Source of the DNA: a virus
Strand: one strand, 5' to 3'
Virus record (IMG/VR): IMGVR_UViG_3300035034_001869
Location: 1-64,000 of that record
DNA length: 64,000 nt
Shown here: in pieces, positions 5,411 to 39,042 of the stretch
Position numbering within the stretch: position 1 is the first letter of the stretch
Layout: each line of letters begins with the position of its first letter
Program-made: the position numbers and the translations under genes
Notes under the pieces: model-generated
The model's database searches: none
What the model saw: only the letters and a program-made list of their open reading frames with translations
What the model was told of the DNA's origin: nothing

Positions 5411-5695
5411 TTACTCGCCCCTACCTCCACATTTATCACATGTATCTTTTTTGGGTTTTTGTGTGTGAATTTTTTGAAGTTTGTCTACCATCTTAAACGC
5501 ACTCATTTGAGCATTATTTTCCAGATTGCTGATTTCTTTATGAGTTAAGAACACGCCATCCCAAGGACCTCTGAATCTGAATTGTTTGGGCTTTCCATTC
5601 ACAAATGTATTTAACCATACATCTTTCCCTTGAAGCAATGCAATCAAGGATTCCTCAGTCAATTGTATAATTTCTGGATATTCTTTATCCGACAT
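5411..5695 (-). CDS. Hypothetical protein with C-terminal zinc knuckle, 94 aa
   Basis: The last residues form CDKCGGRG, the half-repeat typical of DnaJ-type zinc fingers. With only one CxxC pair present, metal binding would need a dimer or a partner. The N-terminal part (IIQLTEESLIALLQGKDVWL) looks like a phage beta/alpha module. It overlaps the next gene by 11 bases. Confidence 0.7.
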   Translation of the reverse strand: MSDKEYPEIIQLTEESLIALLQGKDVWLNTFVNGKPKQFRFRGPWDGVFLTHKEISNLENNAQMSAFKMVDKLQKIHTQKPKKDTCDKCGGRGE

Positions 5696-7301: not shown

Positions 7302-7864
7302 TTTTTAAACTCTGGTTTAATTTTGAACTCACTGAACAACCTTTCCAATCCTGTTGTCAATCTCTTATCTTTGTCCTTAATCTTTCCCTTTTTGGTCTTT
7401 TTCTGCTTGTAGATCAAGACCTCAGGTAATTTCTTTCCTGGGTATTTCTTTTTAAATTCTTTGACAAGTTTATTGATACTTGTTTTTTTAAGATTTTTTG
7501 GTTTTTTCTTTTCTGAAGGGTGAACATAATTTAATTTTGTCATAGGAGGGTCCTCAATAAAGTCAGCAAGGCTACGTAAAAATTCAGGTAACGTGATATC
7601 AAATTTGTGCAGTCCAGTCCGTATAAATGAATTGGTTATTTTACCTTCAACAGCGTTTGCTCCTCTGTGAATTATTCCACGAATCAATCCAGCTTCTTCA
7701 GGTTTTCCAAGATTTCTGGCATTTGATGAATGGGCATGATCAACTACCATTACATCAGCGTTGCATTTCATTTTTAAAACAGGACAAATATCATTCTGCT
7801 TCTTATGAAAATGTTTACGTATCTGATATAATTCTTTGGGTTTTATTTGTCTTTTCTTTTTCAT
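7298..7864 (-). CDS. Endonuclease VII-like DNA junction nuclease
   Basis: Related to T4 endonuclease VII, which resolves branched DNA before packaging. The catalytic betabeta-alpha core is visible as VVDHAH, then GLIRGIIHRGANAVEGK, matching the family pattern of DHDH...GLLC..CN..EG. Only two cysteines remain at the usual zinc site (CPVLKMKC), and the downstream cysteines are replaced, so zinc binding may be lost. The C-terminal half is very lysine-rich. Its stop overlaps the HNH gene start. Confidence 0.8.
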   Translation of the reverse strand: MKKKRQIKPKELYQIRKHFHKKQNDICPVLKMKCNADVMVVDHAHSSNARNLGKPEEAGLIRGIIHRGANAVEGKITNSFIRTGLHKFDITLPEFLRSLADFIEDPPMTKLNYVHPSEKKKPKNLKKTSINKLVKEFKKKYPGKKLPEVLIYKQKKTKKGKIKDKDKRLTTGLERLFSEFKIKPEFKK

Positions 7865-17360: not shown

Positions 17361-20030
17361 TCAAATTATTTCATTATTTTTAATTTGTTTAAGACTATAT
17401 TCTGTCATCTGGGCAAATGATCCTCCATCTTCACGTAATGCAGAAAGTTCATGCTCTATTTCCATGGGAACAATTAACCATTTGAATCTGTTCTGTAAGT
17501 CTGCTACTATATTGGAAACTCCCTCCATATAAAAGGCAGTTTCATCCTTATGTATATCCGAAAGTATAGAATCATGAATTTGCCCAATTAATTTGGTTCT
17601 CAGTTTATTTTTTCGAATGAATTTTGCAATTTCGTTTAAGGTATAAACCAGAAGGTGAAAAGAAGTTCCTTGAATAGGATAGTTGGTGCATTGTTTTCTA
17701 TCCATATATCCTTGAAATCTAAAACCAAGATAAGTTTCAATGAATCCATATCTTTGATAAAATTCAACGATATCTTTCTTCCATTGAGTGTACTCCGGAA
17801 ATCTTTCATTCCACATCTTATCTTCAACATGTTTACAATGTTCAAGGAATGAACCTTCTGTTGCTTCGTAATTATCTATTGTGCCAAGTTCATAAATACC
17901 TTTACTTTCAAGATGATCTCTGACAGTGATGCCGTTTGGCAATTCAAGTCCTGCTTCAACAACATTTTCCCATAAAGCTTTCCCGCATGACCCGAACCAA
18001 TCCCCATAGAACTGAGCAAAGGTCCAATCACTCTTAGCAAAGAATCTGATCATTTTTACAAGTTTCTTTTGTTCTTTGGAATAATCTTTTCTTTCTAACA
18101 TGTCATTAGGCAACATCCATAAATCAGTCGCATTATCTCTATGCATATCGGTTGTCGGGTCTACGAGATAATTATAAAAGTTCTTGTCTTGATGATAACA
18201 TACACTCGTTATTACCTCTGCCCCAGAGAAATCTTGCTCCCCAATTCTGCATTCAGGAGAAGGCACAATTCCCATTCTTATCAATGCTTTGATGATCGCA
18301 TCTCTATTTGGAAGATTCTGAAAATTAGGCATTGAGGATGAAGATCTATAACTGACAGGGATATGAAGATCAAAAAAGGGATGAATTTTTCCCATGACTT
18401 CTTCTCTGGTGAACTGAGCAAGATATGTTCCTCTTGCTTTTTCAAGCTTTTTTACTTCAATAAGTTTATCGACAAAAGGTAGATTTAAACCTTCAAGAGT
18501 TACTTTGTCCGTTTTATAATTTCCATTTGCCGTGTAAACAGGAGGTTTACCAAGAACATCATAAAACAGCTTTCCCAAATCTTGATTCGATGTTAAGCTT
18601 ATTTCTTTACCAAATGTCTCTTTGAATTTTGTTGCTTCTCTGCCTTCAGACAAATATTTATTCATTTCTTTCATCTGGACTTCTAAATCTTTTTCGGCTT
18701 GTTCATAATAAGACACATCAACAGGTATTCCATTGTTTTGAATGGTTCCCATTGTATGTAATCCACGCATAAATAATTTATATGCGCTGAACATTTCTTT
18801 CATTCTTGGAAGAGTTATGGATTGATCTCTGTATCTCATCATTGTGTAAATACAATCAAGGCCGTTATATATCAATAATTCTCTGAAAGGAGCTTTTTCA
18901 ATTGTATTGAATTCGCCATTCTTTGATTTTAAAAATGGTTTGATTGCGGTATCATAAGGACGAACTCCATAATGAACAAATGTCTGAAATTTTAATCCTG
19001 TGGAAGCTTTTCTGTTATCAAGGATATGTTCTGCCATCATAGTATCCCAATGCCAAGACGTAGCTCTTGTTCCGACATGAACTTTAGACCAAGAATCTTC
19101 AAACTTCCAATTCTGCACAACTTTTTTTATTTTTTTATCTCTGAGTATTTTTCCCCATAAATTTAAAAGTATTTTAAATTCAGATTCGGTCCAAAAAGAT
19201 TTATAATTAAAGGGAAATGCATACGCTTTTTTGGTAGACACAGCAATACCTATGGTACAAATTTTGTGTCCCTTTCTATAGGGCTTTAATCCGGTAGTTT
19301 CGTAATCAAATGCAATGGTTGGTTTTCTGTTTATTATTCGTTTTAAGAGCGATTTAACAGCTTTAAAGTCTGTCAGTATAGAAACGTACTGCTCATAGTC
19401 TGTAAATGCTTCATATGTCAGTTTAAGACAGTGAGCAACACGTTTTAAATCTTTTGTGAACGTGCATTTTCTATTTTTATCAGTTTCTTTGTCTAAAACA
19501 AAGTTTGGATGATACAATGGCACTATATAACAGCCAAATTTTTGATCGGGAATTTCGTATGCTCTCCATCTCTCAACTTGACGATTTGAAAAGTCTTCCC
19601 CAAACAACGATGTATTTGAAATACTTCCAAGAGATAGTATTAATTTTGGCTTTAATGTTCTGATTGCTTTTTCTACGTTAGGATAACAACATTTTATTTC
19701 TTTGTGGGATGGTGCCCTGCCTGATGGGGGTTTACAACTTACTGCATTCATTACCCAACAATCTTTTCTTAATGATATTCCGTGTTCTCTAAGACCATCA
19801 GCAAGAAGTTTCCCTGAACTTCCTAAGAGGGCTGTGCCATATTGATCTTCTTCCTCGCTCGGGTATTCGGATATGATAAGAATACCCTTTCTGCCTTCCC
19901 CGGAAACTTTAATTTTAGAAGTTACACAGGTAGTATATAATTTACACTGCATACAGTTTGGTTCAAGTTGATCCACATCTATCTTTATTGTCGTGATTTT
20001 ATTAAGCTCTGAACTTGTGAAGAATCCCAT
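17361..20030 (-). CDS. Uracil-DNA glycosylase fused to family A DNA polymerase
   Basis: The replicative polymerase. Residues 20-200 form a family 4 (iron-sulfur) uracil-DNA glycosylase with cysteines C26, C29, C99 (NAVSCKPP) and C114/C115, and the HP motif at 174-175. A 3'-5' proofreading exonuclease follows, with D242-x-E244 (FDYETTGL) and NGLDCIYTM near 389. The polymerase domain has motif A at D600 (QDFSGAE), motif B with KSDWTFAQFYG near 666-676, and motif C at H819-D820 (IGQIHDS). The fusion would couple uracil removal or sensing to synthesis. The clamp gene lies 2 bases upstream. Confidence 0.95.
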   Translation of the reverse strand: MGFFTSSELNKITTIKIDVDQLEPNCMQCKLYTTCVTSKIKVSGEGRKGILIISEYPSEEEDQYGTALLGSSGKLLADGLREHGISLRKDCWVMNAVSCKPPSGRAPSHKEIKCCYPNVEKAIRTLKPKLILSLGSISNTSLFGEDFSNRQVERWRAYEIPDQKFGCYIVPLYHPNFVLDKETDKNRKCTFTKDLKRVAHCLKLTYEAFTDYEQYVSILTDFKAVKSLLKRIINRKPTIAFDYETTGLKPYRKGHKICTIGIAVSTKKAYAFPFNYKSFWTESEFKILLNLWGKILRDKKIKKVVQNWKFEDSWSKVHVGTRATSWHWDTMMAEHILDNRKASTGLKFQTFVHYGVRPYDTAIKPFLKSKNGEFNTIEKAPFRELLIYNGLDCIYTMMRYRDQSITLPRMKEMFSAYKLFMRGLHTMGTIQNNGIPVDVSYYEQAEKDLEVQMKEMNKYLSEGREATKFKETFGKEISLTSNQDLGKLFYDVLGKPPVYTANGNYKTDKVTLEGLNLPFVDKLIEVKKLEKARGTYLAQFTREEVMGKIHPFFDLHIPVSYRSSSSMPNFQNLPNRDAIIKALIRMGIVPSPECRIGEQDFSGAEVITSVCYHQDKNFYNYLVDPTTDMHRDNATDLWMLPNDMLERKDYSKEQKKLVKMIRFFAKSDWTFAQFYGDWFGSCGKALWENVVEAGLELPNGITVRDHLESKGIYELGTIDNYEATEGSFLEHCKHVEDKMWNERFPEYTQWKKDIVEFYQRYGFIETYLGFRFQGYMDRKQCTNYPIQGTSFHLLVYTLNEIAKFIRKNKLRTKLIGQIHDSILSDIHKDETAFYMEGVSNIVADLQNRFKWLIVPMEIEHELSALREDGGSFAQMTEYSLKQIKNNEII

Positions 20031-20032
20031 AA

Positions 20033-21043
20033 TTATTCTCCAAATAATGCTGTTACAATCGTAAAATCTCCGTTCGTAATACTTATTCGTTTTTCGTCAT
20101 GTCTCAAAGTTGAGGAGTGTCGTAACATTTCTTTTAAAAACGATGGACTGACAGAGAATGAAAAGTCGGCTCCATCATACTCAGTTTTTGTTCTATACTG
20201 CATACTGCCTGAATCAGATTTTGCCTGAATCAAACATATGTTTTTCTTTATGGTGATAGTTACGGATGAGGTAAACTCATCGGTGAATACTTCAGACATA
20301 TCAAGTCCGTCAAGCATCCCCTTTTCCAACTCTACAGATTCGCCGTTAAGCTTATCGACCACACTGGAAAAATCGGGGTAGTTTCCGGAAGTTCTTCTAA
20401 CTGACAACACATACGCATCATTCTCTTCTTTGAAATGAATCCATGATTTTGTGACATCATACGTTGACAGATCAAGACTGATGATGGTCGGAATGTGTCT
20501 GGACTGCAACAGCATGGTTTTCATCTTTTTGGCTAAGATCGCTTTTGCCACTCTGTTATTGTCTGATGCAATCATGATTGTATCTTTGATCGACAAACAT
20601 GCTAAGGTATTATCTGATTCTTTCTTTGATGCGGCAAATTGACAGAGTTTAGCAGAATCAAAGAAGTTCTCTGGTATTGAATACCATTTACACGTTTCAA
20701 TTGATTTCGCTATCTCTTTTGTTCGTAAAGGAATTTCTTCATCCGTTATTGTCTTCAGCTTCAATTTTACATCTTTTGCTTTGATGATGAAATCTGTTTC
20801 TTCCATAGAAATATCAATCAAATCGCCTTTAATCTTACTTACGGTCTTCATCAGATTATCAGCGTGAACGAAACATTCAAAATCAGTTTCAAATTTATAG
20901 GTTATAAGTATCTCATTATTGTAGGCCATTATATTTTCACCAGTAAACTGAAAATATAACATACTCTCTAATGATTTGCTTTTTGATAATCCAATTTTGA
21001 CTGTACTCAGAACGTCATAAAAGTTGGCCTTGTTTATTTTCAT
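20033..21043 (-). CDS. Sliding clamp (beta-clamp-like)
   Basis: Processivity ring for the polymerase. The 336-residue chain has the repeated strand-helix-strand pattern of DnaN, including a VRRTSGNYPDFSSVVDKL segment, which is the typical YPD..R/V loop before the third domain, and an ending FTIVTALFG in the place of the usual MPMR-type C-terminus. It is flanked by its polymerase and the ABC/GNAT fusion, whose last 29 bases overlap its start, so translation is likely coupled. Confidence 0.85.
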   Translation of the reverse strand: MKINKANFYDVLSTVKIGLSKSKSLESMLYFQFTGENIMAYNNEILITYKFETDFECFVHADNLMKTVSKIKGDLIDISMEETDFIIKAKDVKLKLKTITDEEIPLRTKEIAKSIETCKWYSIPENFFDSAKLCQFAASKKESDNTLACLSIKDTIMIASDNNRVAKAILAKKMKTMLLQSRHIPTIISLDLSTYDVTKSWIHFKEENDAYVLSVRRTSGNYPDFSSVVDKLNGESVELEKGMLDGLDMSEVFTDEFTSSVTITIKKNICLIQAKSDSGSMQYRTKTEYDGADFSFSVSPSFLKEMLRHSSTLRHDEKRISITNGDFTIVTALFGE

Positions 21044-22118
21044 TTCTTATTTTCCTATTATAAATAAATTCATGAGAAAAACATAATCGTCCTTCTGAAG
21101 TATTCCAATGTTTAAAGAATTTGTTGGGTGCGGACTTAGTGGACATGTTCGTTGATGTTGCCGCCCACTTGTCTGATTCATTTCTTACTACTCCTAATTT
21201 TCTATGAGATGTTTTAGCAAAATATCTATTACCTTTGCTTGTGTAGAACTCTGCAATAGTTTCAGATAATCTCATTCCTATACCAAAACCTTGATAATCA
21301 GGAAGAACAACTATTCGATGTTCTCTCCACGCATGAAATACTGTGCCAGAAGGTAATGAACAAGTGGCTATTAAACCAACCAAGACACCATCCATAAAAG
21401 CAAGAAATACTTTAGAAGACTTTAAAATATCCCCACTTAAATAGTGATGATTTTTAAACATCTTCCACGAGGAATGATCTCCTTCGTATATTCTGATCTC
21501 GATTTTAGGTCGTTGAAGCCACCTCCCAGAATACAATTCATTTGTATCCATATCATATACCCAACTTGGTCTAAGCCATTCGATAATATCGTAATGACAA
21601 GTGGCGAAAACTATTCTTCCTATATTGTTTCTGGAAATGTATTTGTTAATTGAATTACAGGCAGACTTTGCAACAACTCTATCAACAACGGATGTAAATT
21701 CATCTATGGTTGCGTTGGTTCTCAATTGTCTTGCCATTGATACTCTAAATTTTTCTCCGTTAGATAAAACGTGAAATGGCTTCAACCATGTTTTTACAGA
21801 ACTAAGACCAACTGCAAATAATTTGGCCTCTGCATCAGACTTTGAATTAAAATGTGAAATTATCGCTTTGTCTCTTTCCCACTTTAGTTTTTTGGTTTTA
21901 CCGAAGAATTTTTTTAGAACTGAACTTTTGCCACTGCCGGAGGACCCGACAATTAAGCCGATCTTAAATTTTTTTGGAAATGATGGGATATTTTTGACAT
22001 GAAATATATTGTTTCCATCAAATTTAATGTCATAATCAGCAGAAATCTCCTCAGTTATATTGTCACATACAACTGAGGAGATTTTTTTTATTTCATGTCT
22101 ATTTATGATGCCAGACAT
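21015..22118 (-). CDS. ABC-type ATPase fused to GNAT acetyltransferase domain
   Basis: Residues 40-200 form a soluble ABC ATPase: Walker A GSSGSGKS 58-65, signature LSNGEKF 118-124, Walker B with TIDEFTS 137-143, and H-loop histidine H175 in ATCHYD. There are no membrane segments. Residues 205-355 form a GNAT fold with the acetyl-CoA loop QGFGIG at 276-281. A FKNHHYL motif at 221-227 recalls the Mu Mom DNA-modification branch. Location inside the polymerase-clamp operon with a 29-base overlap suggests action on DNA or on the replisome. The substrate is unknown. Confidence 0.85.
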   Translation of the reverse strand: MSGIINRHEIKKISSVVCDNITEEISADYDIKFDGNNIFHVKNIPSFPKKFKIGLIVGSSGSGKSSVLKKFFGKTKKLKWERDKAIISHFNSKSDAEAKLFAVGLSSVKTWLKPFHVLSNGEKFRVSMARQLRTNATIDEFTSVVDRVVAKSACNSINKYISRNNIGRIVFATCHYDIIEWLRPSWVYDMDTNELYSGRWLQRPKIEIRIYEGDHSSWKMFKNHHYLSGDILKSSKVFLAFMDGVLVGLIATCSLPSGTVFHAWREHRIVVLPDYQGFGIGMRLSETIAEFYTSKGNRYFAKTSHRKLGVVRNESDKWAATSTNMSTKSAPNKFFKHWNTSEGRLCFSHEFIYNRKIRNENKQGQLL

Positions 22119-22124
22119 TACTGC

Positions 22125-22637
22125 CTATTTTTTGGTAGCAGTGTACTGAAAGTAATTTTTCATTACTCCACATACATGACCAACGGTGGTTTTCATGCCG
22201 GATTTTTCACGATCAGGAAATATCTTTGCCACTGCGTTCAGAATCAGTTCACGATCAACACTGTTGTCATTTTCAACGATGGCACGAATGATTTCATAGC
22301 CGACTTTGGGACCGGCAGATTTTTTCTCTTTGCGAGCTTTTTTCTCTTTCTTGGGTTTTTTCTCTTTCCCTTTCTTGGGTTTTTCTTCATCTGCATCATC
22401 CGTATCATCCGCATCATCAATTACAATAAATTTATTGTAGAAATCAATCGTTTCGTCCGGAAGATCTGCCGCTTTGTCTTTCTCAATGAAATCAAGAATT
22501 TTGTTCGTAAATTCTTCGACAACAACCTCTTTTTTGATTCCAACAACCTTGATTGTGTCTTCTCCGGCAGTTTTCAAAACTTCATTAAGAGCTTTTAATG
22601 CCTCTTTGAATTCTTTGCCTGGGATGTTTTTCGCCAT
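22125..22637 (-). CDS. Hypothetical protein with lysine-rich linker, 170 aa
   Basis: An N-terminal helical domain (about 1-70) is followed by an acidic patch (DDADDTDDADEE), a lysine/glutamate linker (EKKPKKEKKARKEKK) and a C-terminal 60-residue domain (YEIIRAIVENDNSVDRELILNAVAKIFP...GHVCGVMKNYF) that looks like a winged helix. DNA binding is therefore likely but not proven. It is the first gene after the promoter at 22.7 kb and leads into the ABC/GNAT, clamp and polymerase genes. Confidence 0.75.
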   Translation of the reverse strand: MAKNIPGKEFKEALKALNEVLKTAGEDTIKVVGIKKEVVVEEFTNKILDFIEKDKAADLPDETIDFYNKFIVIDDADDTDDADEEKPKKGKEKKPKKEKKARKEKKSAGPKVGYEIIRAIVENDNSVDRELILNAVAKIFPDREKSGMKTTVGHVCGVMKNYFQYTATKK

Positions 22638-23122: not shown

Positions 23123-24643
23123 CTAATGCCCGCTGTAATAACTATCCAAATATACCTGTCCTGCTTTTATATCCTGTAAAACAGTGCATTGAACCCCAGG
23201 AATAAACGGCTGAGATCTTGCTTCAGTTATTCCATAATTTAAAACACCTTCTGCCTTTTGTAAAGGTGTTTGATTCAATCCACACATCATATTAACATGC
23301 TGATTCTTTCCATAAAATCCTGCTTGATGACTTGAATCAAGAACCCCTGCTTTGTGTCCTTCTTTGTTCGCTTGAGTCGCAGTAATTACCAGAGCGTTGA
23401 ACTCTCCTGCCATTCGTGCCATTAATTTCCAAGCTTCATCAACTGCTCGGTAATCATCGAATCTTGAACCTATGTCGAGAATATCCACGTAGTCGATAAT
23501 AAATATATCCGGTATAAATCCTTCTTTGTTATTCCAAACCTCTATATCTCGCATCATTTTATCGTAGGTAAGTGTGTATTTTGGGTGAACAGACAATCTT
23601 GCATATTTGTTGAATGTTGAAGCCATTCCTTCGTTTCTTAATCTTCCCTCAAGCAAATCTCTTACGGCAAATATATCATCTGCTGGTCGAAATATATTTT
23701 CAAAATAAACAGTCACATCAAAATCATGAGGACCCCTTCCTGATTTACACATAGTGCAAGGATTGTGAGTAGGATCATCTATCAATTCATCTCCATCTCG
23801 AATTATTACGGTTGATAATCTATCAACACATTCCCCGGTCTGATTCTTTTTACAATCAAACACAGGATAGGGATATTCCCCTTCTTCATCAACCATAGGT
23901 TGAAATGCTTTCATAATACGTGGGGTGATTTCTGTCTTTGTCATCTCAACTGACCAGAATATTGACTTTCTTTTTTGTAGAACAGCATGTTTGAAATGAT
24001 CGACCAAAGTAAAGGACTTACCTCGTTTTGCGGGGGCGTAGTAACCAACAACATCACCACGTTTAAAATTTCCAAGATATCTTCCAAGATCTCCAGGTAA
24101 TTGAAAGAAGTTTTTATCCTCTTCGTCTCGTTGCCTATATATTTCTGTGATTTGATTTACATCACCGAGATTTATTAGAGTTCCGGCATCAATGTCAAGA
24201 GTTACTTTCTGGAATCTTTTGATTTCATCTTCTGCTTCCTCGTATTCACCTTTCTCTTTCAGAACAGAAACATTATTGACCATTATTTCTAATTCACGTT
24301 TTCTGAAATAATCAGTGGCAGAATCAGCAAGATAACCAACATTGATTGATTCTTCGTCATATTGTTCTGAAAGTAATTTTAAAAGATCTCCGATTAATTC
24401 AGAATCCGATTCTTTTAAAGTCGGTACTTCAGATTCATAGATGTCTTGAATATGTTTATATGGAGCTTTTTCATGTTCCTCATAAAATGAGATACACCAA
24501 GTTGCAATAGTTTTTAAATAAGAGTTCAGAAAATAATCAAGTTGAAATATAGGGTGGATAGTTTTTATAAAATCACTTGATATGATCAGACCGGTTACAA
24601 TTCTTTTTTCTTCCGTGACAGAAACAGTACGTTCAGTGATCAT
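23123..24643 (-). CDS. DnaB-like replicative helicase with cysteine insertion
   Basis: Unwinds DNA at the fork as a RecA-type hexameric ring. An N-terminal helical domain (1-150) is followed by the motor, with Walker A APAKRGKS at 203-210, SVEMTK as H1a-like segment near 231, Walker B DIFIIDYVDIL near 380 and a QANKEG sensor region. Unusual are four cysteines, C264, C272, C296 and C299, inserted after Walker A, which could bind zinc. Its start overlaps the preceding gene by 4 bases (ATGA), tying it to the probable loader. Confidence 0.92.
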   Translation of the reverse strand: MITERTVSVTEEKRIVTGLIISSDFIKTIHPIFQLDYFLNSYLKTIATWCISFYEEHEKAPYKHIQDIYESEVPTLKESDSELIGDLLKLLSEQYDEESINVGYLADSATDYFRKRELEIMVNNVSVLKEKGEYEEAEDEIKRFQKVTLDIDAGTLINLGDVNQITEIYRQRDEEDKNFFQLPGDLGRYLGNFKRGDVVGYYAPAKRGKSFTLVDHFKHAVLQKRKSIFWSVEMTKTEITPRIMKAFQPMVDEEGEYPYPVFDCKKNQTGECVDRLSTVIIRDGDELIDDPTHNPCTMCKSGRGPHDFDVTVYFENIFRPADDIFAVRDLLEGRLRNEGMASTFNKYARLSVHPKYTLTYDKMMRDIEVWNNKEGFIPDIFIIDYVDILDIGSRFDDYRAVDEAWKLMARMAGEFNALVITATQANKEGHKAGVLDSSHQAGFYGKNQHVNMMCGLNQTPLQKAEGVLNYGITEARSQPFIPGVQCTVLQDIKAGQVYLDSYYSGH

Positions 24644-37041: not shown

Positions 37042-39042
37042 TTAGAAGTTTATTTTTATGGTTCTTTCAAAACTTCCTTTCACTCTACAGATCAGACTTG
37101 CTCTCTTGGTAGATGAAAATCCAAGTCCGCTTAACTGATCTTCTTTCTGGTCGGTTTTCATCTTTGATCCAAGAACTTCAAAAACTTTTCTGTGTTCTGT
37201 CATGCTTTCTTTCAGGAACTCATTGAAAAATCCCCTGACAGGTTCCCCACTATCACAATTTTCCAGAATGAAGAAATAATGCTTGTTACCAGTTTCTTCC
37301 CCGTCCCAATGATTGGGTGAGTTCATGATCATATTCACTTTATGGAATTTTTGAGTTCCAAGCTCCCATGTAACTCTGGGGGATTCCTCAGATTCCAGTG
37401 ATCTCACAATGGTAATGCCTGTTTTTCTGTCAAAATTGAATATGACGACATCAATATTGGCACTGGTTCTCATAGGTTTTTGATAGTTATAAGTCCAGAT
37501 CTTTCCTTCATATTCCATTTCAAGAGTGAACCCGTAATTCTCCGTGTTTCTTTTGGTAAATTGATTGATGAAAACTCTGTACTCGCCTTCGGGCATTTTG
37601 TTTTTGTTTGTCCAGGCAATATTTTCAACCGGGCTTGTTGATTGCGCATCACCGGCATTCATATCAACATCTAACATTCCAGAAGAAGGATGAACTTGCC
37701 TTTTGTTTCCAAAATAGATATGACTTCCAGCACCGGGTTCCTTCACATGAATATCAAGATCATCTCCGTTAAACCAGGCAAGTGAGCATCTTAAAACAGC
37801 ATCAATATTTCCGCCTGCTCTTTTTACTCTCTCTTTAATGGAATCCGCAACTTCCCCATTGTATGACCAGGAAAAGTTATTTCTCCATTTAAACATTCCG
37901 GGAGCATCGAAATTGCTCGGGGCAACCAGGCTCATCAAATTGTTTTCATGTTTGTTTTCAAACATGGCTTCAATTGATTCTGCTTTCGGTAGGATCTCAT
38001 TTACGAAGGTATCAATACTGACTTCTTCCACTTTTTTAAGGTTCTTTATATTTGTGGAAGATTCATTTGACATCTCATCAAATACATTCATTGCCTGTTT
38101 TGCTTTTCGATCTGCAAACAAAACATTGTTAATGGTAAGATCATCCATTTTTGCATTTCTTCTTGGCAGTGAATCAATGAACCCAAGCTGTTCGATTTTT
38201 TCCTGAGCTTTCTTTATCATTCTTTGAGTAATAACGGCAGTTGGTCTTTTGTAATTTTCCGGGGCAACCTTTGACTCAAACATTCCCACAGCTTTGTCCA
38301 AGTTCATACCAATCGAGATATCAATCAGCAAAGTTCCAATTGCCGTATTTCGTATTCTTGCGCCGGATTCGTTGCAGAATTTCCAGGCAAAAGTATTAAG
38401 ATAGGGAAGTCCAAAATTATCAGCAATAAAACACAATTTTTGAAAGTCCATAACAGCTTGTTTGTGTTCATCCCCACGATAGATGGAATCTTGACTGATC
38501 AGTTCCAAAACGGTTTCAATTGATTCATTTGTGATTTCGTCCAACCCTCTGAGAAAAACATCCTTGTTTGCTCTTGTTTTGGAAAGGACAGTTCCTGGGT
38601 CAGTATTGATAAATTTTCTCGGCAGTTTGAAATAGAAATGATCCCACCGCATATCTTCAATTTTTGCATCGAAATTTGACTTAGTTCCAATATTCTGTTC
38701 CCAATGAAGGAATTGATCAGATATCTTTTCATCCTTTACCAAACGAGACATGTTATCTGCCACTTCTTGGTAATACTTTCCTTTGATTTTGATATCCCAT
38801 ATTGATGTCAGTGTCAAATCCTTGTTAATACTTACAACATCACCACAAGCACGAATGAACTGTTTACAACATTGACAATCATGGAGTGTTCTCTCCCTGA
38901 ATACTGGGTTTGATCCGTCCGGAAAACTATTCAGATATGTTTCCCACAGAATATCTTTATCAATTCCAGTTCGGAACAATTTACCCTTTGCCATTTTTGA
39001 AAATTGATGATTTACAGCATCTCTAAATTCCACGAAATCCAT
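37042..39042 (-). CDS. Large protein with DUF2135-like beta-sandwich domain, 666 aa
   Basis: Residues 1-75 include a cysteine site (CQCCKQFIRACG). The middle 300 residues are helical and resemble a ligand- or RNA-binding repeat. Near 395-500 a beta-sandwich with LRCSLAWFNGDDLDIHV, HIYFGNK, LDVDMNAGD and GEYRVFINQF matches the DUF2135/YfaP pattern. The C-terminal 120 residues form another beta domain. One of the largest leftward genes outside replication. Function unknown. Its abundance of charged acid residues near DDLDIHV suggests a metal site. Confidence 0.8.
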   Translation of the reverse strand: MDFVEFRDAVNHQFSKMAKGKLFRTGIDKDILWETYLNSFPDGSNPVFRERTLHDCQCCKQFIRACGDVVSINKDLTLTSIWDIKIKGKYYQEVADNMSRLVKDEKISDQFLHWEQNIGTKSNFDAKIEDMRWDHFYFKLPRKFINTDPGTVLSKTRANKDVFLRGLDEITNESIETVLELISQDSIYRGDEHKQAVMDFQKLCFIADNFGLPYLNTFAWKFCNESGARIRNTAIGTLLIDISIGMNLDKAVGMFESKVAPENYKRPTAVITQRMIKKAQEKIEQLGFIDSLPRRNAKMDDLTINNVLFADRKAKQAMNVFDEMSNESSTNIKNLKKVEEVSIDTFVNEILPKAESIEAMFENKHENNLMSLVAPSNFDAPGMFKWRNNFSWSYNGEVADSIKERVKRAGGNIDAVLRCSLAWFNGDDLDIHVKEPGAGSHIYFGNKRQVHPSSGMLDVDMNAGDAQSTSPVENIAWTNKNKMPEGEYRVFINQFTKRNTENYGFTLEMEYEGKIWTYNYQKPMRTSANIDVVIFNFDRKTGITIVRSLESEESPRVTWELGTQKFHKVNMIMNSPNHWDGEETGNKHYFFILENCDSGEPVRGFFNEFLKESMTEHRKVFEVLGSKMKTDQKEDQLSGLGFSSTKRASLICRVKGSFERTIKINF

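Follow-up and report, generated by a model that had tools for sequence, protein, structure and literature searches.

Phage Mu Mom (PF25680; PDB 8bv8) is a GNAT-superfamily protein with a His-Tyr (HY) pair at the end of its first helix, and is associated with a modified DNA base and resistance to restriction (PMC6483171). A second group of GNATs is coupled with an ABC ATPase (ABC-GNAT), shares the superfamily and the helix-end motif with Mom, and was predicted by Iyer and Aravind (2013) to acyl-modify a DNA base, with Tenacibaculum phage pT24 as a named example (PMC7824862); for this group, an outcome like that of Mom is a proposal. The prediction has been outstanding since 2013, and we found no biochemistry on any ABC-GNAT family member in the literature. 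The family is common in phages and prophages: relatives of the protein described here are encoded in 75 INPHARED phage records, 250 stretches of IMG/VR viral contigs and 384 GTDB genome stretches, the latter mostly from Planctomycetota among the 80 stretches kept. Database names for these proteins are often misleading, as in L087, L296 and L297. Enterococcus phage 9184 (L087) has its GNAT half labelled 'DNA polymerase', records of Streptococcus and Oenococcus phages list the ABC half as an 'iron siderophore transporter', and 'methylase' or 'methyltransferase' is given for the ParB-like partner. PADLOC returned only weak ATPase matches for the ABC-GNAT, and it thus represents no known defence system.

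We analysed a stretch of 64,000 bases (the window) from a 71,928-base IMG/VR virus record. Its ORF at 21015–22118 (minus strand) begins with ATG and encodes, in one uninterrupted CDS of 367 aa, a soluble ABC ATPase and a GNAT, as judged by Pfam, PHROGs, motifs and reading of the DNA. Pfam assigned the N-terminal half to ABC_tran (25.9 bits) and the C-terminal half to Acetyltransf_1 (28.9 bits), both above cut-off, and the single full-length PHROGs match was phrog_11143 (358 bits), which has no assigned function. All parts of the gene given below lie on the minus strand. The ABC domain, delimited by AlphaFold2 and VIA-align, covers approximately residues 8–199 (21522–22097) and includes a Walker A motif (GSSGSGKS, residues 58–65, 21924–21947), an ABC signature (LSNGE, residues 118–122, 21753–21767), a Walker B motif with the catalytic Glu (ATIDE, residues 136–140, 21699–21713) and an H-loop histidine (residue 175, 21594–21596). 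The GNAT domain (approximately residues 205–353, 21060–21506; Pfam Acetyltransf_1/_7, AlphaFold2 and VIA) contains an HHYL motif (residues 224–227, 21438–21449) and an acyl-CoA binding loop (QGFGIG, residues 276–281, 21276–21293).

Conservation was assessed in an alignment of 112 sequences, namely the window protein and 111 relatives. The ATPase hallmarks K64, S119, G121, D139, E140 and H175 are invariant (112/112), with E122 present in 109, and the same holds for Y226, R268, P273, Q276, G277 and W318 of the GNAT domain. The other residues of the two GNAT motifs are nearly invariant (L227 in 110 sequences, H225 in 109, H224 in 104, G279 in 108 and G281 in 110). The motifs of the window protein are therefore not chance occurrences, and at the level of sequence both halves keep the residues needed for activity as an ABC ATPase and as a GNAT that uses acyl-CoA. 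These results bear out the original prediction, made for this gene from the DNA letters, that a fusion with Walker A, signature, Walker B, H-loop and HHY motifs is encoded here and overlaps a sliding clamp gene by 29 bases (21015–21043).

The window protein and pT24 are homologous, with 38.9% identity over residues 80–352 (E 3e-52). Coupling of ABC ATPase and GNAT, homology to pT24 and intact ATPase and acyl-CoA motifs are the features by which the Iyer and Aravind family is recognized, and the window protein is a further member of this already predicted family, not a new family. The window carries both domains in a single CDS within a clamp-polymerase operon, whereas pT24 and several Gram-positive phages encode them as separate ORFs.

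AlphaFold2 modelled the whole window protein with a pLDDT of 80.8 and the GNAT domain alone, a canonical GNAT, with a pLDDT of 87.2. The N-terminal half is an ABC domain, and VIA-align of residues 5–204 of the model gave ABC nucleotide-binding domains (NBDs) as best matches (Z 14.0 to 8s7v and 13.5 to MJ0796). The GNAT-domain model matched 1y9k (Z 12.8) and RimI (Z 12.2), and its nearest folds are protein and small-molecule acetyltransferases, including RimI, Naa50 and Ard1. The original prediction had named best structural matches to ordinary acetyltransferases only, combined with normal nucleosides in virion DNA, as counting against it; the former is what was found for the fold, but the fold does not decide the substrate. 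Mom (8bv8) was absent from the best 50 PDB fold matches listed for the GNAT model, which we count neither for nor against a relationship. Models of phage Mom-family proteins matched the GNAT model with E values of 3.4e-4 to 3.7e-4, and other viral GNATs matched at least as well.

A relationship to Mom had been part of the original prediction, based on the HHY motif. Pfam gave no match of PF25680 to the window protein at E<1, and the family is absent among the best 25 of the 59 Pfam families matched by 31 relatives, whereas in the positive comparison PF25680 matched Mu Mom with 253 bits and the Mom of phage Sonny with 207 bits. A Mom HMM built here likewise found no match in the window. Profile comparison of the ABC-GNAT with Mom, proposed along with the original prediction, detected no significant similarity (hhalign probability 0.8%, E 0.068), and the best BLAST piece against Mom had an E value of 0.80, with the HY-containing piece weaker. 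Both BLAST and hhalign placed the HHY of the window GNAT on the HY of Mom (H58-Y59), neither in a significant alignment. Mom has no ATPase domain and lacks the QxxGxG acyl-CoA loop, which the ABC-GNAT has in canonical form. Membership in the Mom family was rejected on the Pfam and profile results. Given the non-significant alignments, the lack of a PF25680 match and the loop absent from Mom, we place the ABC-GNAT in a GNAT branch other than that of Mom, the two having one feature in common.

Genome context supports a Mom-like function better than sequence does. In Arthrobacter phage EastWest, a ParB-like gene (gene 74) is followed by an ABC-GNAT (gene 75) and, on the opposite strand, a clamp gene (gene 79), while Wyborn, Sicarius2 and Sonny each have a Mom-family gene after the ParB-like gene and before the clamp gene. 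DNA homology ends at positions 5595–5627 of the EastWest locus and restarts at 7317 in all three comparisons, and the flanking EastWest proteins are 54–88% identical to those of Wyborn (ParB 60%, clamp 54%), except for gene 80 (41%). No match to the Sonny Mom was found in the complete EastWest genome and none to the ABC-GNAT in Sonny and Wyborn. The EastWest ABC-GNAT thus fills the slot that collinear relatives give to Mom, behind the same ParB-like gene. This exchange represents a single event within one phage group, and the gene involved is related to the window gene but is not that gene itself.

Mom and ABC-GNAT genes also occur together. A 4-base overlap links the ABC-GNAT stop to a Mom-family gene in five viral contigs (L025:10173-11096, L031:3124-4047, L037:6892-7815, L038:5124-6047 and L047:11041-11964), and the Mom-family protein of L025 matches PF25680 with 47 bits. 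HEWLG replaces HYS in the three of these coupled genes that were read. In L073 and L074, a clear Mom is encoded about 3 kb downstream of the ABC-GNAT. Aeromonas phage PX29 (L083, L286) encodes both a Mom-family protein and, at a distance of about 16 kb, an ABC-GNAT, showing that the two are not always alternatives. What is supported of the earlier link to Mom is a Mom-like role on DNA bases, through locus exchange, coupled Mom genes and the ParB linkage described below, together with the placement of HHY on the Mom HY; descent from the Mom group was not upheld.

A ParB-like gene is located immediately upstream of the ABC-GNAT in 63 of the 74 genome loci with enough sequence. The prophage module reads ParB, ABC-GNAT, TerS, TerL, and terminase and portal genes are commonly next. 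Packaging genes are present in the Streptococcus relative Javan53 with no ABC-GNAT annotated at that place, which suggests that the module is dispensable. Phage DNA methyltransferases carry the same ParB domain at their N-terminus (phrog_498; MTase_II; phage matches annotated as methylases). The domain also precedes Mom in Antuna, Sonny and Wyborn, and a ParB HMM built here matches the ParBs that adjoin Mom. With the ABC-GNATs as with the ParB-fused DNA adenine methyltransferases of phrog_498, a ParB-like domain adjoins the putative or known modifier or is fused to it, but DNA methyltransferases transfer methyl from SAM and have a catalytic fold unrelated to GNAT. In the clade of the window gene itself, none of 80 viral loci has a ParB neighbour, and HMMs built here for the ParB, TerL, TerS and portal proteins of the prophage module found no homologues in the window.

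Other relatives are accompanied by acyl- or formyl-handling enzymes. A Formyl_trans_N gene follows the ABC-GNAT in Komp_PAO1_1, Gordonia phages and the loci L204 (L204:3129-3818), L182, L184, L167 and L180, and formyltransferases (PF00551) adjoining it include L092:4897-5514 and L300:1823-2473. In Gordonia phage Yago84, the genes for ParB, ABC-GNAT, formyltransferase and terminase follow one another with overlaps of 4–17 bases, and in an Oscillospiraceae contig the formyltransferase is fused to the ABC-GNAT C-terminus (L152:1245-2849, plus strand, 534 aa). The nearest solved relative of the L092 formyltransferase is 10-formyl-THF dehydrogenase. By position, the formyltransferase lies beside the ABC-GNAT in 13 of the 28 phage records that carry it. 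In Jace and L187, the ABC-GNAT gene is followed by genes for aspartate decarboxylase and a short CoA-transferase III-like protein, and matching pieces occur near it in L186, L172 and L176; the pair was located at L089:4879-5990, L187:1508-2576 and L186:7118-8092. In the aspartate decarboxylase, a Gly-Ser pair coincides with the known site of self-cleavage. These genes suggest amine capping by the formyltransferase in some relatives and possible supply of beta-alanyl-CoA by the decarboxylase and the CoA-transferase III-like gene in others. We found no such extra partner in the window and no ParB, N6/N4-methyltransferase or formyltransferase in the 71.9-kb record; a Mom search of the record also gave no match, but the Mom control genomes gave none either.

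In the window, the ABC-GNAT gene overlaps an ORF on the same strand (20033–21043) that matches the DNA polymerase processivity factor phrog_947 (106 bits) and the DnaN model TIGR00663 (E 3.7e-15, below the curated cut-off of the model). Two bases past this clamp ORF begins the next gene of the operon (17361–20030, minus strand), which encodes a family A DNA polymerase (DNA_pol_A, 114 bits) with N-terminal UDG-like (PF03167, 62.6 bits) and 3'-5' exonuclease (42.7 bits) domains according to Pfam. Upstream are a lysine-rich ORF of 170 aa (22125–22637, minus strand) with no Pfam match above cut-off and only weak PHROG matches, and a DnaB-like replicative helicase gene (23123–24643, minus strand; phrog_19, E 8.5e-32).

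The 29-base clamp overlap recurs in one close relative (L002, 73% identity) and, among the viral relatives compared, is common to this relative and the window only. In 8 of the 28 viral clusters that have 3 kb of flanking sequence at both ends, a polymerase gene lies within 5 kb of the ABC-GNAT, which makes the replication module a common home of the ABC-GNAT; the 408 neighbour genes in 31 viral clusters are otherwise little conserved. In Microbacterium phage BarnCat (L292:2537-5123), the layout resembles that of the window, with a Mom-family gene that overlaps the gene for DNA polymerase I. The original prediction had inferred function from the clamp operon. We rejected the operon as functional evidence, since a layout found in just one close relative, among poorly conserved neighbours and with the gene beside terminase in prophages, is weak evidence. 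Modification of replisome proteins, which had been suggested on the same basis, is conceivable but favoured by none of the results.

We consider it probable that the window ABC-GNAT is an ATP-dependent DNA-base acyltransferase of the phage that does the job of Mom by a different enzyme. The idea of DNA-base modification in the original prediction is thereby retained, on the strength of locus exchange, coupled Mom genes and ParB linkage, and not of the clamp operon from which it had been drawn. Further points in favour are the acyl and formyl partners, the invariant residues and the 2013 prediction. Against it count the lack of ParB near the window clade, a GNAT fold nearest to protein and small-molecule acetyltransferases, the non-conserved clamp layout, the single occurrence of the Mom exchange, the presence of both genes in PX29, and the record with no other modification gene, where the Mom search had no positive control. 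In the mechanism that we propose, two ABC-GNAT copies would enclose ATP in a head-to-tail arrangement on phage DNA, forming an ATP-gated clamp that would hold, scan or open the duplex. Binding of the ABC dimer would expose a base, the GNAT would move the acyl group from acyl-CoA to an exocyclic base amine, probably of adenine by analogy with Mom, and ATP hydrolysis would release the DNA. DNA modified in this way would be expected to resist host restriction nucleases. Co-transcription with the clamp and polymerase genes is probable in the window, so the enzyme should be present during DNA replication; in temperate relatives, the ParB-like partner probably recruits it to DNA.

The main competitor among the substrates is a protein. 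The GNAT might acetylate a host or replisome protein that the ABC half recruits or remodels, which we regard as unlikely. The protein N-acetyltransferases RimI, Naa50 and Ard1 among the closest folds and the overlap with the clamp gene would fit such an activity, and PMC7824862 cites a precedent in phage Rac, which acetylates RNA polymerase. Protein acetylation would, however, leave the Mom exchange, the ParB linkage, the coupled Mom genes and the partners for unusual acyl groups unexplained, and only one close relative shares the clamp adjacency. TmcA/NAT10 likewise combines a GNAT with an ATPase, in this case of helicase type, and acetylates cytidine in RNA. ABC-GNATs share this architecture in outline as well as the presumed action on nucleic acid, and the GNAT alignment has a weak match to RNA cytidine acetyltransferase (E 0.21) that is confined to the CoA loop. 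Modification of tRNA, rRNA or mRNA in this manner nevertheless appears even less probable than protein acetylation, as the ATPase is an ABC ATPase, not a helicase, and the ParB-like, DNA methyltransferase, Mom and terminase neighbours favour DNA.

Names given in many records ('iron siderophore transporter', 'hemin importer', 'oligopeptide transport') would instead make the protein the ATP-binding subunit of an ABC transporter, a reading to which we attach hardly any credence. It agrees with the canonical ABC motifs and with transporter NBDs as best N-terminal fold matches, but the names are based on the ABC domain only and disregard the fused GNAT with its invariant residues. Moreover, the genes that recur next to it serve replication, packaging or DNA modification, and no recurrent permease was found beside the ABC-GNAT among the neighbour families identified.

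If the DNA-base acyltransferase reading is correct, a class of ATP-driven enzymes would join the anti-restriction repertoire of phages, and the formyltransferase and aspartate decarboxylase cassettes would point to the chemistry of the adduct. We put forward, as a tentative extension, that a modular pathway with the ABC-GNAT at its core adds amino-acid-like groups to DNA bases, which would constitute a new ABC-driven chemical class of DNA hypermodification. Jace-type loci would produce beta-alanine with aspartate decarboxylase, activate it with the CoA-transferase-like protein and attach it to the base with the ABC-GNAT. The formyltransferase of Gordonia phages, Komp_PAO1_1 and several bacterial loci, once as a fusion, would cap the free amine, while in other phages a Mom-family enzyme would act in tandem with the ABC-GNAT. 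The window would represent the bare ABC-GNAT core with host acyl-CoA as donor.

The collinear pair of EastWest (ABC-GNAT) and Wyborn/Sicarius2 (Mom) makes the 2013 prediction testable. As far as we know, the Mom exchange, the coupled Mom genes, the linkage to the packaging module and the formyltransferase fusion are apparently unreported; Iyer 2013, Krishnan 2020 and Karambelkar 2020 may include some of them. Apart from the genes discussed above, the window encodes on its minus strand (37042–39042) a 666-aa protein of unassigned function that belongs to the well-conserved phage family phrog_1735 (887 bits).
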